This document shows, one piece after another, positions 15,436 to 21,734 of a stretch of DNA of 64,000 bases; position 1 is the stretch's first letter, and every line of letters begins with the position of its first letter. Origin of the DNA: Alphaproteobacteria bacterium. Its GTDB lineage: Bacteria; Pseudomonadota; Alphaproteobacteria; Caulobacterales; Hyphomonadaceae. Where the stretch lies: assembly GCA_018969425.1 (NCBI GenBank), contig JAGWYJ010000006.1, positions 1 to 64,000 of the forward strand, read 5' to 3'. Under the pieces are notes generated by a model. It had not been told where the DNA came from, made no database searches, and was given only the letters and a program-made list of their open reading frames with translations. Made by a program: the position numbers and the translations under genes.

Positions 15436-16134
15436 GTGGCAAAGAAAGAAAAGAAAAAAAACAAGGCTGAAGAGCCGGATTCGGAAGCTGTGAACGCAGG
15501 CGGAGCTGAGGGTGACGAGGCGTCCGCGCCCGAGAAAAAGAAGTTATCCGGAAAGACTTTGGTCCTCTTCGTGATTCTCCCGGCGCTTTTGGTAATCGGC
15601 GGCGGCGGCGCGGCAGCCTTTATGCTCCTCGGCGGAGCGAAGCCGTCCGCGGAGGTCGCAGAAGCTGGCGCTGACGGTGAAAAAAAGCCTGAGGCCGAGA
15701 AGAAAGCGAAGAAAGATGAAGGCAAGAAGGACGCTCACGGGGGCGCCGCAGGGGAGGGCGCAGAAGGAGAAACGACGGCGGTTGCGGCGAGCGAGGTCGG
15801 TCTGCTGACAGTCGGTGAGCCCGGCGATCCTTCGTATTACAAGATGCCGAAGATGATCGTGAACCTCGCTTCGGGATCCGGGGGTCGCGCCATTGTCATG
15901 CAGCTCGATCTTGTTCTCGAATCGGCCGATGCGAAGAACTTTGATGAAATGACGGTTCTTATGCCGCGGCTGACGGACCAGTTTCAGACTTTTTTGCGTG
16001 AACTTCGCGTAGAGGATCTGGAGGGGTCAGCGGGATCCTACAGACTGAGGCTTGAGCTCCTCAGGCGTTTCAACATCGTCATGGCCCCGGCCAAGATCGA
16101 TGCGGTGCTTATCGAGGGCATGCTGATCAACTAG
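15436..16134 (+). CDS. fliL: Flagellar basal body-associated protein FliL
   Basis: FliL is an inner-membrane protein that surrounds or supports the stator units. The 232-residue product starts with a highly charged cytoplasmic region (AKKEKKKNKAEEPD). One membrane segment follows at about residues 44-66, then a Lys/Glu/Ala-rich linker near 75-115. The conserved FliL domain comes last, with YYKMPKMIVNLAS near 135 and the ending APAKIDAVLIEGMLIN. The start is a GTG at 15436; no ATG fits as well. It leads the fliL-fliM operon. Confidence 0.95.
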   Translation: MAKKEKKKNKAEEPDSEAVNAGGAEGDEASAPEKKKLSGKTLVLFVILPALLVIGGGGAAAFMLLGGAKPSAEVAEAGADGEKKPEAEKKAKKDEGKKDAHGGAAGEGAEGETTAVAASEVGLLTVGEPGDPSYYKMPKMIVNLASGSGGRAIVMQLDLVLESADAKNFDEMTVLMPRLTDQFQTFLRELRVEDLEGSAGSYRLRLELLRRFNIVMAPAKIDAVLIEGMLIN

Positions 16135-16144
16135 GGGACGTCCT

Positions 16145-17284
16145 TTGGCTGCGGAAGATGACGATGACATGGCTGCGGCCTGGGAAGCGAGCGTCGCCTC
16201 GGAGGCGGGCTCCCAGGACGATGACCTTGCCGCTTCATGGGAAGCGGAGACCGCTGACGCTTCTTCCGGCTCCGTCATTGCCGGGATCGGCGCTCAGACC
16301 TCCGAGCGCATTCTCAACCAGGACGAGATCGACAACCTCCTCGGTTTCACGATGGAGGAAGAGACCAACGTTAAGCGTAACGGTGTTCGCGCGCTTATCA
16401 ATTCGTCTCTTGTCTCCTACGAGCGTCTGCCGATGCTCGAAGTCGTGTTCGATCGTCTAGTTCGTCTGATGACCACCAGCCTTAGGAACTTCACTTCCGA
16501 CAACGTGGAGGTGAACCTCGATTCCATGCAGTCCATGCGCTTCGGGGATTATCTTAATTCAATTTCGCTCCCGGCGATTCTTTCCGTTTTCAGGGCGAAG
16601 CAGCTGGATAATTTCGGGTTGCTGACGGTTGATTCAAATCTGATCTATTCGATTGTGGACGTTCTTCTTGGCGGACGCCGCGGGACGCTTGCGATGCGTG
16701 TTGAGGGGCGCCCTTACACCACGATTGAGCGGGTGCTGGTGACACGCCTGGTGGAGGTCATTCTTGCTGACGCCAAGAAGGCGTTCGATCCGTTGACCGA
16801 GGTGGATTTCGAGCTTGATCGGATTGAGACCAATCCCCGATTTGCGGCCATCGCGCAGCCTGCGAACGCCGGAATACTGGTCAAACTTCGTATCGAGATG
16901 GAGGATCGTGGAGGGCGTCTAGAGCTAATGCTTCCTTACGCGACCCTTGAGCCAATACGAAAACTGCTCCTTCAGAACTTCATGGGGGAGAAGTTTGGCC
17001 GCGACAATATCTGGGAAGGCCATCTGGCGACTGAGTTATGGTCGGCGCCGGCGACATTGAAGGTTGTCCTGGCCGAGTTCCAGGAATCCCTGGGGCGGAT
17101 GAAGAATCTTCAGGTCGGCGACACGCTGATCATGAACGCTACCCCTGACGCCAAGGCGCAACTGATGTGCGGCGATATCCCTCTCACCCATGGGCAGGTC
17201 GGGCGTATCGGTCAGAATGTGGCGATGCGGGTCGAGGCTCCGATTGCAAACTCAGCCAAGCGACGTGTTCTGGAGTCGAGATGA
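16145..17284 (+). CDS. fliM: Flagellar motor switch protein FliM
   Basis: FliM is a C-ring subunit that binds phosphorylated CheY and transmits the switching signal. The start is probably the TTG at 16145, with AGGGGAC 6 bases upstream; an in-frame ATG lies at 16169. The first 55 residues are acidic and contain an imperfect duplication (DDDDMAAAWEAS and DDDLAASWEAE). The CheY-binding type motif LNQDEIDNLLGF follows near residue 60. The middle domain contains RLPMLEVVFDRLVRLMTTSLR and the C-terminal SpoA domain contains LQVGDTLIMN. The length, 379, is normal for alphaproteobacteria. Its stop overlaps the next start by four bases. Confidence 0.96.
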   Translation: MAAEDDDDMAAAWEASVASEAGSQDDDLAASWEAETADASSGSVIAGIGAQTSERILNQDEIDNLLGFTMEEETNVKRNGVRALINSSLVSYERLPMLEVVFDRLVRLMTTSLRNFTSDNVEVNLDSMQSMRFGDYLNSISLPAILSVFRAKQLDNFGLLTVDSNLIYSIVDVLLGGRRGTLAMRVEGRPYTTIERVLVTRLVEVILADAKKAFDPLTEVDFELDRIETNPRFAAIAQPANAGILVKLRIEMEDRGGRLELMLPYATLEPIRKLLLQNFMGEKFGRDNIWEGHLATELWSAPATLKVVLAEFQESLGRMKNLQVGDTLIMNATPDAKAQLMCGDIPLTHGQVGRIGQNVAMRVEAPIANSAKRRVLESR

Positions 17285-17586
17285 ATATCTTTTCCCTCAC
17301 GATCGAAATCATTCTGATCAGTCTTCTGCTGATCGCGATCATTTATTGCTGGCGCCTCGACCAGAGGCTCAAGACGCTGAGGTCCGGAAAGGACGGCATG
17401 CTGGCCGCCGCGCGCGAGCTTCAGACCTCCGTCGCCGATGCGCAGAGGGCGGTCGAGATGCTCAGACGGTCTGCTGAGGCCTCTGGGCGGGATCTGCAGG
17501 CGAAAATTGATGAGGCGAGGGCTGTCGCTGCGGTCGTGCCGCGCGAGGGGCCCGATGCGTCGCTCCGCCGACGAAATGTTTACTAG
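17281..17586 (+). CDS. DUF6468 protein, candidate flagellar positioning protein PflI
   Basis: A 101-residue bitopic protein: a membrane segment at about residues 4-22 (SLTIEIILISLLLIAIIYCW), then a cytoplasmic helical region with RLDQRLKTLRSGKDGM and a coiled coil (AARELQTSVADAQRAVEML). This is the DUF6468 pattern. In Caulobacter the polar flagellum placement protein PflI is, as I recall, a small bitopic protein encoded near early flagellar genes, so it may be the equivalent; that link is inference. The ATG at 17281 overlaps the fliM stop (ATGA), which fixes the start and implies coupling. Confidence 0.75.
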   Translation: MNIFSLTIEIILISLLLIAIIYCWRLDQRLKTLRSGKDGMLAAARELQTSVADAQRAVEMLRRSAEASGRDLQAKIDEARAVAAVVPREGPDASLRRRNVY

Positions 17587-17595
17587 GAGATCGAC

Positions 17596-18291
17596 ATGAG
17601 TGCGACTGTCCGAGTTCTACCCGCTCTCATCGCCGTATCGATCGGCGCCCTGGCGTTCAAAGGGGTAGATGTCGCTCAGGCTTTCGCGGAGGCCAATGAA
17701 GCTGCGGACCAGGCGACGTCTGTTAAGCCTGAGACCCAGCTTACGTCCGGTATCGCAGACGCTGCATTCCAGAAGGCAGGGGCTGCGGCAGAGGCCGGGG
17801 CTGAGGACGCGGCGAAATGTGTTCCTGCCATCGATTACGCCTCTGAAACGGGAATTTCCGAACAGGAGGTGCTTGTTTTGCGCAGCTTGTCTGAAAGACG
17901 TCAGGCGTTAGATGACAGAGAGGCGGGTCTGGAGACGCGCGAGCAGATGGCCGCCGCCGCTGAGCAGAGGCTGGATGATCAGATTGCCAAACTCAAGTCG
18001 CTTGAGGGTGATGTCCAGAAGCTGCTGGCTGCAATGGAGGCCAAGCGTGACGAGCGGATGGTCGCTCTGGTGAAGACCTATGAGGCGATGAAGGCAAAGG
18101 ATGCGGCGCGCATCTTTGATGGGATGGACGACAAAGTTCTCCTTGAGCTGGCGAAGTCCATGAAGCCGGCCAATCTCGCTGCGGTGATGGCGGCCATGGA
18201 TTCCAAGCGAGCGGAAAGCCTTACCCGTATGCTGGCATCCCTTGCGCAGCCGCCTCAAAGTCTGGATGAACTGCAGAAATCAGAAGGATGA
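17596..18291 (+). CDS. MotE-family flagellar protein (MgtE N-domain-like)
   Basis: A 231-residue exported protein with an N-terminal hydrophobic signal (about residues 5-20), a low-complexity Ala/Glu/Gln stretch to about 75, a coiled coil (100-155) and a C-terminal helical domain. The C-terminal KDAARIFDGMDDKVLLELAK followed by SMKPANLAAVMAAMD is the MgtE N-domain-like signature of MotE. In Sinorhizobium, MotE is a periplasmic chaperone for MotC, a stator-associated protein. It lies between the DUF6468 gene and the TPR protein, whose start overlaps its stop (ATGA). Confidence 0.85.
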   Translation: MSATVRVLPALIAVSIGALAFKGVDVAQAFAEANEAADQATSVKPETQLTSGIADAAFQKAGAAAEAGAEDAAKCVPAIDYASETGISEQEVLVLRSLSERRQALDDREAGLETREQMAAAAEQRLDDQIAKLKSLEGDVQKLLAAMEAKRDERMVALVKTYEAMKAKDAARIFDGMDDKVLLELAKSMKPANLAAVMAAMDSKRAESLTRMLASLAQPPQSLDELQKSEG

Positions 18292-21200
18292 CGTTTCGAC
18301 CTCTCCATCTGAAAGCGGCTATCGGGCTGACGCTTGCGAGCGTCTCGGTCTTGGGAGGCGCTTTGCCCGCCTGGGCGCAAAGGGCGGTGACGATTTCAGT
18401 TCAGGATCAGCCGACCCACGCGCGGCTGACGGCGAAGTGGGCTGACGGGGATCTCAAGGCGCCCCGAGTCTCTGCGTCGATCTCGTCTCAGGTCCTGTTG
18501 CTGCGCTTCGATCAGAAGGTGAAGCTCGACGCTGAGGCCCTCAAGAAGGATCTTGGAGGATGGGCGGCTCTGGTTCGTCTCGATCCGGACGGGATGACGG
18601 CCCGTATCGGCCTGACCAAAGCGCCTCGTCTTCACCTCTCCACATCCATGGACCTGACGGCCATTGATCTGGTTCGCCCCGGGGTTAACGAGGATCCCCC
18701 TGACGTCGTCTCGCCCCTCCTCATCAAGAAGGCCGAGGTCGCCGCCGCTCCGCCGCCTCCGCCTCCGCCTGCGCCTATCGTGCCTGTGGAGGTCAGGGGA
18801 AGCCACTATGGGGAGAATTCCAGGGTGGCTTTTTACTGGGCCGAAAAGGTCGCGTACAAAGTGGCGGAGCAGGGGCCGGACTTCATCACCCTGCAGTTCG
18901 CCAAGCGAGCGAAGCCAGACGTCGCTTACATGCGGATTTCACCGCCTGCCAATGTGGGCGGCTTCGAGACCGAGAACACAGACAAGGGTTATCGTGTCAC
19001 GATACGTTCAAAGGATAATCTTCCCATCCGGCACTATGTCGAGGAAGGAATCCCCATCGTCGATATCGGCATCCTGAAGGCGGAAACCCCCGATCCGAAT
19101 GAGGCGCCGCTTCCGCCTCCGCCTCCCCGTGCTCAGGGTCGCCCAATTCTTCTCACGCCGCCGAAGCAGGTGATCGGCGAGGGAGGGGCGGCGCCTTCGC
19201 CTCCGCCGCCTCCGACGGCGGCTCCGCCGGTAGTTGTCATTGGCGGGGAGGCTCGTGTGACGGCGCTCGGACCGCGATGGCGTGATCCTGCGCCTCGCGG
19301 AGCGTCGATACCGGTCGATGTCGGAGTTGTCGGCGATGGGGTGGAGTTCACGACGTCTTTTCCGAGTCCCGCCGCGGCTGCGGTCTTCTCGCGAGGAAGC
19401 GCTGTCTGGGTCGTGTTTGCATCGAACGCCGCGCTAAAGCTGGACCAGGCTGATCTCCCAGGGGGCTTCAAGGCTCGGGTGATCCGCGGCCAGAATGCGA
19501 CGATGATGCGTATTGAGCCGCCTAAAGGCCTCAAGGTATCGGCCGAAGCGGAAGGGTCTACCTGGACGGTGAGGTTCGCGGCGGTCCCGCTCAAGCCAAG
19601 TCGCTTTTTGAAGTCTGAGCGCAAGCCGTCCGATGACGGACGGATGCGCATTGAGACCATGCTCATAGGGGCCACAGGCCTGATCTGGTTCGACGATCCC
19701 GTTATTGGCGATCAGTTGGCGGTCGCCGTATCCTATGGTCCTTCGTCTTCGTCCCCGACGGCTCGTGATTTTGTGGAGGCCTCTTTACCAGCCACCGCTC
19801 ACGGCGTTGCGATTGCGCCCAAGTCGGATCAGGTGCTCGCCCTGATCGAGGGCGAACGCGTGGTGGTTGCTCTGGGTCGAGCGGCGGAGCAGTCGGCAAG
19901 CAATCCCAAGTCAGCTGTCGGGTCGCCCCCACCCCCGCCGCCTCCGCCCCCGCCGAGCACGCGATCCGCCTTCATTGATTTCGCCAAGTGGGGCGGAAAG
20001 TCCGGTGAGGATTGGCTTCGAGAGCGTCAGACGCTCGAATCCTACGCTTCCAGACTCGAACCGACCAAGCCGCAGACCGCCACGGCGATCATCGCGCTTG
20101 CGCGTTTCTACCTTGGCCATGAGATGGCCTTTGAGGCTCTCGGACTTCTCCGAGCCGCCTCGATCTCTCAGCCAGCCCTTGAACTTGATCCGAAGTTTCT
20201 CGGGTTAAGGGCTGCAGGAAATGTCATGGCGGGCCGTATGGCCGCTGCTGAGGCTGATCTGTCGCGAGAATTGCTTAAGGGCGACCGATCCGCCGCCCTC
20301 TGGCGTGCGATGGTTGCTGTGGACCGCCGGGAGTGGCCTCGTGCGGTGCAGTTCTTCGGAGAGGCTGACGGAGAGATTGAAAAATACCCTCCGCAATGGG
20401 CCGCCCGTTTTGAGGTGGCGGCGGCGGAAGCTCTTTTCAATACCAATGATTATGATGCAGCTCGTCGTCTCGCTCAGCATGTGGTGGATACCGGGCCTCG
20501 TCTCGAGGCGGACCGAGCGAGGCTTGTGCTGGCCAATCTCGCTGCGGTTATTGATGGTCCTGATGCGGGTTATGGAAAGTTCGCACAGCTCACTCGGTCG
20601 GCTCTCGAGCCGGTCGCCGTAAGAGCGGAGCTGCGTCGCATCGAGACTGGATCAGCTGCGGGAAAGATTGCAGTCAAGGACGCTGTCGAGGCTCTTGACG
20701 TTCTGAGATATCGCTGGCGGGGCGACACGCTGGAGCTTGAAACTGTCGCTGTTCTTGCTGACCAGCATATGAAAGCTGGGCGCTTCCGCGAGGCGCTTGT
20801 CGTTCTTCAATCGGCGGCGCTTCGTGATCCGGCCGCGATTGGCGCCCGCGAGGTGCGTGTGCGACTCAGCGATTACTTCCGACGTCTATATCTTGATGGC
20901 GAGGTTGACCGTCTGGATCCCATACAGGCGCTTGCTCTTTATTATGAGTTCGCTGACCTCACGCCCATAGGGTCAGACGGCGATCTGATGGTGAGAAAGC
21001 TGGCGCAGCGCCTGGTCGCATTCGATTTGCTGGAGCCTGCGGCTAGTTTGCTTCAGCATCAGGTTGATAATCGGATGCGGGGAATGGGTCGCTCGTCCAT
21101 CGCTGTCGACCTTGCAACTATCTATCTTCTCAATAAGCAGCCGGACCTTGCTTTGTCGGCGATCGACAGAACCCGGCAGCCGGGCATGCCGAGGGAGCTC

Positions 21201-21734
21201 ATGCTTGAGCGGCGCCTTCTTGAGGCGGCGGCTTATCGCGATATGGGCCGATACGATAATGTAATTGAGCTTGTCGAACCGCTTGAGACACCTGAGGCCC
21301 GATCATTCCTTGCTGACGCTTACTGGCGTGATCGGAGGTGGTCTGAGGCTGCGCGCGCCTATATGGCGATGCTTCCGCCTCCCACTGAGGCCGTTAAACC
21401 CTCCCATGCCGACATCGCTATGCGCGCGGCCATCTCTGGAAGGCTTGCTAGGGATATGAATCTTCTGGCAGATCTGCGTGCGCGCTACGGCCCTCTTTTC
21501 CAGGGCAACCCTAACCAGGCCAGCTTCGAACTGATGACGTCACAGGCGGAAGTCGGAGGCGCTGGTTTGTCGGAGGCTGCGCGCAGAATGGCCGACGCTC
21601 CCAGGGTCGATGCTTTCTCGGCTGCCATGAAGGCCCGGTTGCAGGGTCGCTCCGTTACCCCGCCCGCAGGCGCCGCCGCCCCCGCGCCGCGAGCTGCTGC
21701 GCCCAAACCGTCTGGCGCTCCCGCCTCAGGTTGA
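18288..21734 (+). CDS. Large periplasmic protein with beta domains, Pro-rich linkers and TPR repeats (1148 aa)
   Basis: A signal peptide ends at LPAWAQ (about residue 30). Three or four beta-rich segments follow, at about 31-130, 165-265, 315-440 and 450-540, resembling AMIN-type folds. They are separated by proline runs near 155, 273, 302 and 546. From about 570 to 1090 the protein is helical with TPR-like repeats (for example ATAIIALARFYLGHEMAFEA and LVARFEALVVLQ-type pairs). The last 30 residues are Pro/Ala-rich. The gene is coupled to motE by an ATGA overlap, so it belongs to the fliL-fliM operon and probably acts at the motor from the periplasm. I do not recognise a named family. Campylobacter PflA and PflB are TPR stator-scaffold proteins, which offers an analogy only. 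Confidence 0.85.
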   Translation: MTFRPLHLKAAIGLTLASVSVLGGALPAWAQRAVTISVQDQPTHARLTAKWADGDLKAPRVSASISSQVLLLRFDQKVKLDAEALKKDLGGWAALVRLDPDGMTARIGLTKAPRLHLSTSMDLTAIDLVRPGVNEDPPDVVSPLLIKKAEVAAAPPPPPPPAPIVPVEVRGSHYGENSRVAFYWAEKVAYKVAEQGPDFITLQFAKRAKPDVAYMRISPPANVGGFETENTDKGYRVTIRSKDNLPIRHYVEEGIPIVDIGILKAETPDPNEAPLPPPPPRAQGRPILLTPPKQVIGEGGAAPSPPPPPTAAPPVVVIGGEARVTALGPRWRDPAPRGASIPVDVGVVGDGVEFTTSFPSPAAAAVFSRGSAVWVVFASNAALKLDQADLPGGFKARVIRGQNATMMRIEPPKGLKVSAEAEGSTWTVRFAAVPLKPSRFLKSERKPSDDGRMRIETMLIGATGLIWFDDPVIGDQLAVAVSYGPSSSSPTARDFVEASLPATAHGVAIAPKSDQVLALIEGERVVVALGRAAEQSASNPKSAVGSPPPPPPPPPPSTRSAFIDFAKWGGKSGEDWLRERQTLESYASRLEPTKPQTATAIIALARFYLGHEMAFEALGLLRAASISQPALELDPKFLGLRAAGNVMAGRMAAAEADLSRELLKGDRSAALWRAMVAVDRREWPRAVQFFGEADGEIEKYPPQWAARFEVAAAEALFNTNDYDAARRLAQHVVDTGPRLEADRARLVLANLAAVIDGPDAGYGKFAQLTRSALEPVAVRAELRRIETGSAAGKIAVKDAVEALDVLRYRWRGDTLELETVAVLADQHMKAGRFREALVVLQSAALRDPAAIGAREVRVRLSDYFRRLYLDGEVDRLDPIQALALYYEFADLTPIGSDGDLMVRKLAQRLVAFDLLEPAASLLQHQVDNRMRGMGRSSIAVDLATIYLLNKQPDLALSAIDRTRQPGMPRELMLERRLLEAAAYRDMGRYDNVIELVEPLETPEARSFLADAYWRDRRWSEAARAYMAMLPPPTEAVKPSHADIAMRAAISGRLARDMNLLADLRARYGPLFQGNPNQASFELMTSQAEVGGAGLSEAARRMADAPRVDAFSAAMKARLQGRSVTPPAGAAAPAPRAAAPKPSGAPASG

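Follow-up and report, generated by a model that had tools for sequence, protein, structure and literature searches.

What part does a protein of 1,148 residues, encoded immediately behind motE in a flagellar operon, play in the motor? The gene lies on contig JAGWYJ010000006.1 (assembly GCA_018969425.1) of an alphaproteobacterium of the family Hyphomonadaceae, of which positions 1 to 64,000 were analysed (the window, 64,000 nucleotides). The original prediction for this locus described a signal peptide, several beta-rich segments, proline runs, a half resembling tetratricopeptide repeats (TPR) and a four-base overlap with motE inside a fliL–fliM operon, all of which we could confirm from the sequence. 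We find that the protein is probably a periplasmic stator-associated scaffold of the flagellar motor, likely forming spokes on a ring of MotE. This reading is supported by the position of the gene in its operon, by published mutants of fssB and motK, by the binding partners of MotK, by profile kinship, by co-occurrence across genomes and by stator genes found as neighbours in other orders.

In terms of gene position, the homologue of the window protein is Caulobacter crescentus CC_2058 (CCNA_02137), also called FssB. For comparison we used the C. vibrioides T5M6 protein that we took as CC_2058 by its position (L115; loci and genomes are cited by our own L and G numbers). BLASTP aligned the two with 34% identity over 815 positions (E 1e-117), and domain hidden Markov models (HMMs) recovered D2, D3, D4 and the TPR region (Table 1) in the same order in both proteins. 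In both operons, which are the same, the gene follows motE immediately. The C. vibrioides protein differs in its length of 961 residues as read, whereas the window protein carries an extra N-terminal domain, D1, and in the spacing of its gene, which is separated from motE by a gap of ~20 bases. The neighbourhood survey beside motE that had been suggested as a check favoured the coupling: among 80 named loci of the order with a homologue, motE lies immediately upstream in 50, the C. vibrioides locus included, and 10 have less than 1 kb of upstream sequence. As a separate observation, the scaffold gene has no motE upstream, within the 6.3–6.9 kb checked, in 10 of 10 Brevundimonas loci (L088–L091, L094–L096, L100, L109 and L116) and in four of the five testable Robiginitomaculum loci (L053, L054, L060 and L080).

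The protein belongs to the CC_2058/FssB family, for which mutants have been published. In the excerpts of PMC7885107, an fssB deletion in Caulobacter leaves filaments assembled and the cells nonmotile, described by the authors as 'analogous to a motB mutant', and fssB is needed for stator-dependent surface signalling, which its deletion suppresses. The earlier statement that no role had been described is outdated, since this deletion, with its motility assay and its paralysed cells, was published in 2021. Others have likened CC_2059/CC_2058 to FlgY/PflA by predicted structure, according to the available parts of PMC11870540 and PMC13023049.

A further functional link comes from MotK of Cereibacter sphaeroides, described in the excerpts of PMC10954123 as a periplasmic protein. 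Modelling gives it an N-terminus of AMIN-like type and TPR-like helices; MotE and MotB2 are its binding partners, and its mutant is paralysed but flagellated. The same excerpts call CC_2058 a distant MotK homologue on structural grounds and report no similarity by BLAST. Our MotK-like set comprises eight loci, in all of which a protein of 734–883 residues is encoded directly after motA; motE precedes motA in seven of the eight, which is the setting reported for motK, and one locus is a plasmid cluster of Paroceanicella profunda. Three of the eight (L213, L214 and L217) were picked through a match to the FssB family profile, which is partly circular, and a five-sequence set excludes them. With four, five and eight sequences, hhalign matched D2 to the MotK-like N-terminal domain at 96.3%, 97.0% and 97.7% (100 columns with eight) and the family TPR region to the MotK-like TPR region at 97.6%, 98.3% and 98.8% (397 columns with eight). 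In the eight-sequence controls, 40 column shuffles each reached at most 1.0% for D2 and 0.5% for the TPR region. Generic TPR likeness as the sole cause of this link was rejected, since E. coli LapB and BcsC, compared with the TPR region of the family, gave 7.8% and 5.3%. Searched against 289 genomes, one MotK-like sequence hit three large family members in their N-terminal part (E 4.5e-7, 6.7e-7 and 1.3e-4) together with one further MotK-like gene; the window protein was not among its matches.

These profile comparisons argue that the FssB family shares ancestry with the MotK-like proteins. This link, in one beta domain and the TPR region, is new here, the published BLAST comparison having failed; at the level of sequence profiles it connects two groups that the cited papers relate only through structure models. 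MotK and the window protein are alike in their signal peptide or periplasmic location, N-terminal beta domain and TPR-like region; MotE is a partner of MotK, and the window gene is coupled to motE. MotK differs in having 652 residues and one N-terminal beta domain, as given in the excerpts of PMC10954123, whereas the window protein has three; also, MotK-like genes follow motA, whereas the window gene follows motE.

Across genomes, the family is class-wide in Alphaproteobacteria and linked to FliM and MotE, an association that is new here and that makes the family more than a speciality of polar flagellates, for which the original prediction had proposed its role. Family members occur in 158 of 289 class genomes, FliM in 160 and MotE in 155; family and FliM coincide in 147 (phi 0.83) and family and MotE in 145 (phi 0.84), in tables transcribed by hand and checked against totals only. 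The weakest of the class hits are G273 and G298, weaker than 1e-5, and G170, G225 and G244, between 1e-7 and 1e-5. In 73 of the 78 genomes compared (81 best-scoring family rows, 78 of them with a MotE row), the gene and motE share a contig and lie at most 6.05 kb apart. In a phylum sample of 398 genomes, our own included, 60 matches came from the class and 37 from outside it. The best outside match had E 4.1e-12 over ~150 TPR positions and the others fell mostly over TPR positions, and we read them as general TPR likeness. One outside-class genome (G457, contig C136:11889-12479) matched profile positions 129–320, in the beta region, with E 1.5e-4.

Closer to the window, 61 genomes (own included) yielded the gene in 40, FliM in 40 and both in 39. 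The two exceptions are G003, whose assembly is fragmentary and carries the gene on a contig of 4 kb, and G048, a divergent species. In G048, a 563-residue TPR protein matching the family profile adjoins a motA-like gene. As regards non-flagellated relatives, where a wide spread of homologues would have spoken for another role, the gene is present in none of the six relatives without FlhA. We considered and rejected the simple idea that absence of the gene equals absence of flagella, since 15 of the 21 genomes without it have FlhA. In 13 of these 15, the only FlhA scores lower (E 1e-197 to 1e-212), and we take it as a second flagellar type; the remaining two are G001 (78% complete) and the divergent G048. 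Relatives with the lower-scoring FlhA (L121, L122, L124, L126, L133 and others) show a second kind of cluster, with fliL, DUF6468 and a motE-like gene, in genomes without a PF02154 FliM match and with no scaffold gene detected beside motE.

Stator genes are found next to family members in other orders. In Azospirillum brasilense, a plasmid homologue, whose TPR region matches the family at 99.7%, directly precedes motA–motB. At 19 loci outside Caulobacterales (L170–L188), tandem MotB-like genes precede the family gene in 16, and in 15 of these 16 the second MotB-like gene is separated from it by anything from a 25-base overlap to a 47-base gap; in the sixteenth, L180, we think that the start of the family open reading frame (ORF) is overcalled. 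In all 16 loci, the MotB-like protein encoded beside the family gene carries an aspartate within its membrane helix or at the helix edge (in L184 just before the scored core), and the other MotB-like partner has no aspartate in the scored core in any of the 16. Pfam assigned MotB_plug to eight of 10 proteins from these loci, seven of them above the cut-off; of the remaining two, one was a receiver protein and one matched nothing. The pair was not found in the 80 named loci or in 40 relatives' loci, some of which are short, and none of the papers listed by a literature search described it, which is not proof of its absence from the literature.

Conceivably, though we consider it unlikely, many Alphaproteobacteria have a larger module of motE, the MotB-like pair and the TPR scaffold, in which the Asp-less and Asp-bearing proteins would form an asymmetric dimer held around the rotor, as a stator-docking adaptor or a hybrid stator subunit. 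In the order of the window, where no such pair was seen beside the gene, the scaffold is coupled to motE directly. The paired genes of other orders may bear on how stators assemble. At the same distant loci, DUF6468 accompanies motE in 18 of 19, and a gene for a CheY-like receiver lies between motE and the MotB-like pair in L177, L179, L180 and L183 (Pfam Response_reg E 5e-29 for one, the others judged from the similarity of their initial residues).

The anatomy of the window protein fits a secreted, modular protein. Its strongest hydrophobic windows cover residues 6–30, ending PAWA-Q, and past residue 40 no 19-residue window exceeds 1.24 on the Kyte-Doolittle scale, that is, no later membrane helix was seen. 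By profile comparison, the beta-rich half contains three diverged copies of one domain (D1–D3), one more than in C. vibrioides and new here; its beta character is read from the sequence and from published models of relatives. With hhalign, D1 matched D2 at 97.6%, D2 matched D3 at 97.2% and D1 matched D3 at 87.0%. Column shuffles (60 per pair) reached at most 3.3%, and reversed profiles 0.4%, 7.0% and 0.4%, respectively. Compared with six other families (five flagellar, one of tRNA modification), D1–D3 and the MotK-like N-terminal domain gave at most 0.4%. D4, its profile taken from residue 438, reached at most 8.2% against D1–D3. Proline runs at residues 155–161, 276–280, 305–309 and 547–556 sit in the D1–D2, D2–D3 and D4–TPR linkers, given domain borders set by eye.

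In the TPR half, Pfam matches fall within residues 699–1027. The profile search proposed earlier gave a positive answer with TPR_19 (E 2.2e-5, 25.2 bits, just over the cut-off of 25); TPR_2 stays just under its cut-off of 27 (E 5.7e-6, 26.5 bits), weaker TPR matches occur too, and the C. vibrioides homologue reaches 36.2 bits with TPR_2. D1 was not found in that homologue, which has D2 and D3 only; two beta domains precede D3 in 25 of the 27 homologues that scored best outside the order. Judging from these domain counts, D1 may be ancestral and lost towards Caulobacter. The N-terminal modules were cut by eye from an alignment of 60 proteins, in which 33 rows cover D1. Alignment A1 comprised 30 of 40 loci, the window's copy included, and A2 comprised 59 of 80 plus the window.

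In the arrangement that we favour, MotE dimers would form an E-ring around the MS-ring, as published work and structure models of relatives suggest. The TPR region would bind MotE, as is known for MotK only, and run outward as a spoke, while the three beta domains, spaced by proline linkers, might reach peptidoglycan and/or MotB. Stator units would thereby be placed and held, or switched on, at the rotor. The FssB mutant, the binding of MotK and the co-occurrence with FliM and MotE lend good support to the idea of a periplasmic TPR protein that scaffolds the stator together with MotE. The original prediction had offered an extra ring or a stator scaffold; the scaffold stands, whereas the ring itself, by analogy, is more likely formed by MotE, with the window protein as its spokes.

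Several known systems can be set beside this arrangement. Excerpts of PMC13023049 and PMC11870540 group MotE with FlgY and FlbB as an E-ring protein by predicted structure. PflA of Campylobacter has an N-terminal beta-sandwich, a linker and a TPR superhelix (in part of PMC11870540) and is described as structural spokes that help to position the stators (in part of PMC12222027). C. jejuni PflA/FlgY would resemble our pair in the modelled order of beta-sandwich, linker and TPR and in the partnership with a MotE homologue; PflA differs in that one beta-sandwich domain is described and that it works with PflB. In Borrelia burgdorferi, the collar proteins FlcB (TPR-rich) and FlcA interact with the MotE homologue FlbB, whose mutant is without collar and stators, as far as the excerpts of PMC13023049 go. 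This system, likened here by description only, differs in its periplasmic flagella and large collar. Sinorhizobium meliloti MotC, likewise compared by description, is a TPR-rich periplasmic partner of MotE; according to the same excerpts, it differs in lacking the AMIN domain that MotK has in addition.

A number of observations weigh against the scaffold interpretation or against steps leading to it. Twenty of the 80 named loci have no motE found upstream despite more than 1 kb of upstream DNA, 13 of the 61 genomes have a MotE match without a family match, and among the class genomes 11 have the family without FliM (six of them less than 90% complete), the reverse holding for 13. On the side of MotK, gene position, not the published MotK sequence, served to identify the MotK-like proteins, and one of the eight loci (L213) has no motE found. 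In the eight-sequence comparison, D1 and D3 matched the MotK-like N-terminal domain at 49% and 4.6%, and single MotK-like sequences matched the family TPR profile at 0.2–56%. The relation to AMIN domains is similarly uneven. Pfam AMIN (PF11741) matched three of 38 family members (best E 0.0087), not the window protein, and none of the five MotK-like or Azospirillum proteins scanned; one distant family member shows a short match to Pfam's AMIN-like family (E 5.8e-4, 22 residues). Against 21 AMIN sequences (20 from relatives, one E. coli AmiC), D2 gave 43% with hhalign over 39 columns only (shuffles at most 6.1%), and the MotK-like N-terminal domain gave 6.5%. The family profile, searched against PDB chain sequences, returned TPR proteins, the best of them designed, and no PflA, whose presence in that set was not checked. 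Also, the spoke geometry is borrowed from relatives, and the domain contacts, like the expectation that the window protein behaves as its relatives do, are drawn by analogy.

Other explanations were weighed as well. TPR proteins are common, and some of the five weak class hits may be other TPR or beta proteins, which would suit a general envelope protein caught in a flagellar operon by chance; its absence from all relatives without FlhA, its association with FliM across the class and the need for the Caulobacter homologue in motor rotation (in the excerpts of PMC7885107) make this highly improbable. The overlap with motE suits a protein that is a mere client of MotE as a chaperone, or a partner in that pathway, without a structural place in the motor, as first proposed for Sinorhizobium MotE/MotC; MotE has been described as a chaperone of MotC, as reported in part of PMC13023049. 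However, excerpts of PMC10954123 place both MotK and MotE at the flagellated pole and have the stability of MotE depend on MotK, not the reverse, and we regard a pure client role as very unlikely.

Two other variants are less improbable. The beta domains might bind the cell wall while the TPR region ties down the frame of the motor, so that stator loss would be secondary to the failure of a peptidoglycan or envelope anchor. The AMIN-like models that others derived for the N-termini of MotK and CC_2058 (part of PMC10954123) and the three tandem domain copies in the window protein speak for such an anchor, whereas the AMIN relation is weak by sequence and the Caulobacter mutant still assembles filaments (part of PMC7885107); we think it rather unlikely. 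Somewhat more plausible, though still doubtful, is a stator activator, which would bind MotB once this is in the motor and open its plug or remodel its channel, but would not keep the stator in position. MotK needs MotA2/MotB2 for its localisation, and recruitment or activation is what the authors of that work suggest (excerpts of PMC10954123); in addition, when fssA, another stator-activity gene, is deleted, the motile suppressors lie in the MotB plug and in MotA (excerpts of PMC7885107). Set against this, the size, repeated modules and TPR array suit a structural element, and the likened PflA of Campylobacter is modelled as structural spokes in the available part of PMC12222027.

With a stator-associated scaffold as the preferred interpretation, a single predicted gene becomes part of a class-wide motor module. 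Two ideas become testable: that PflA-like spokes stand on a MotE ring in Alphaproteobacteria, and that the scaffold owes its reach or strength to how many beta domains it has (three in the window protein, two in C. vibrioides and one in MotK).

Table 1. Genes of the operon and segments of the protein under study, in window coordinates.
Feature	Position	Strand	Basis and remarks
Gene of interest, CC_2058/FssB homologue, MotK-related periplasmic protein, probable stator scaffold	18288..21734	+	Intact ORF, 1,148 residues
fliL, first operon gene	15436..16134	+	PF03748 E 1.3e-15; order recurs in many related loci
fliM, motor switch protein, start codon uncertain	16145..17284	+	TIGR01397 E 9.3e-90, PF02154
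DUF6468 protein, N-terminal hydrophobic helix judged by eye	17281..17586	+	PF20072 E 3.1e-9
motE, FlgY/FlbB-like, candidate E-ring protein	17596..18291	+	PF03448, NCBIfam FlbB; operon position fits
Signal peptide, residues 1–30, cleavage expected after AWA	18288..18377	+	Hydropathy; cleavage site by eye
Beta-rich domain D1, residues 30–133	18375..18686	+	hhalign with D2 and D3; domain HMMs
Beta-rich domain D2, residues 166–268, copy most like the MotK-like N-terminal domain	18783..19091	+	hhalign
Beta-rich domain D3, residues 336–440	19293..19607	+	hhalign with D2
Domain D4, residues 441–536, profile unlike D1–D3	19608..19895	+	hhalign
Ten-proline linker between D4 and TPR, residues 547–556	19926..19955	+	Sequence
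TPR-like helical region, residues 560–1120	19965..21647	+	Pfam TPR matches; hhalign

The operon runs fliL, fliM, DUF6468, motE and the gene of interest on one strand. The frame of the last gene is open from its ATG to its stop, and its start overlaps the end of motE in the sequence ATGA. A chance ORF was rejected on the basis of a dN/dS of 0.04 (dN 0.029, dS 0.783) against the nearest homologue (L002), which is 94% identical; over 1,141 codons the two differ at 56 first, 23 second and 429 third positions (429 of 508 in the third). The start of the DUF6468 gene was set where an ATGA overlap with the end of fliM is possible; no paper naming DUF6468 was found in the literature searched. Window MotE stays under the curated cut-offs in its matches to MgtE_N (PF03448, E 2.1e-4) and to NCBIfam FlbB (E 3.4e-5). 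Judged by eye from an alignment of 29 sequences, it seems to have an N-terminal hydrophobic segment, an Arg/Glu/Ala-rich, coiled-coil-like middle and an MgtE_N-like end.

Scans for promoters and terminators matched less often than the shuffle means, a viral sequence collection contained no relative of the gene, and FliD, searched as a marker in the window's own genome, was not found there. The same genome contains a second, divergent FliM (L130; G000 contig C57:1794-2888, a 3.4-kb contig), which represents either a second flagellar system or contamination.

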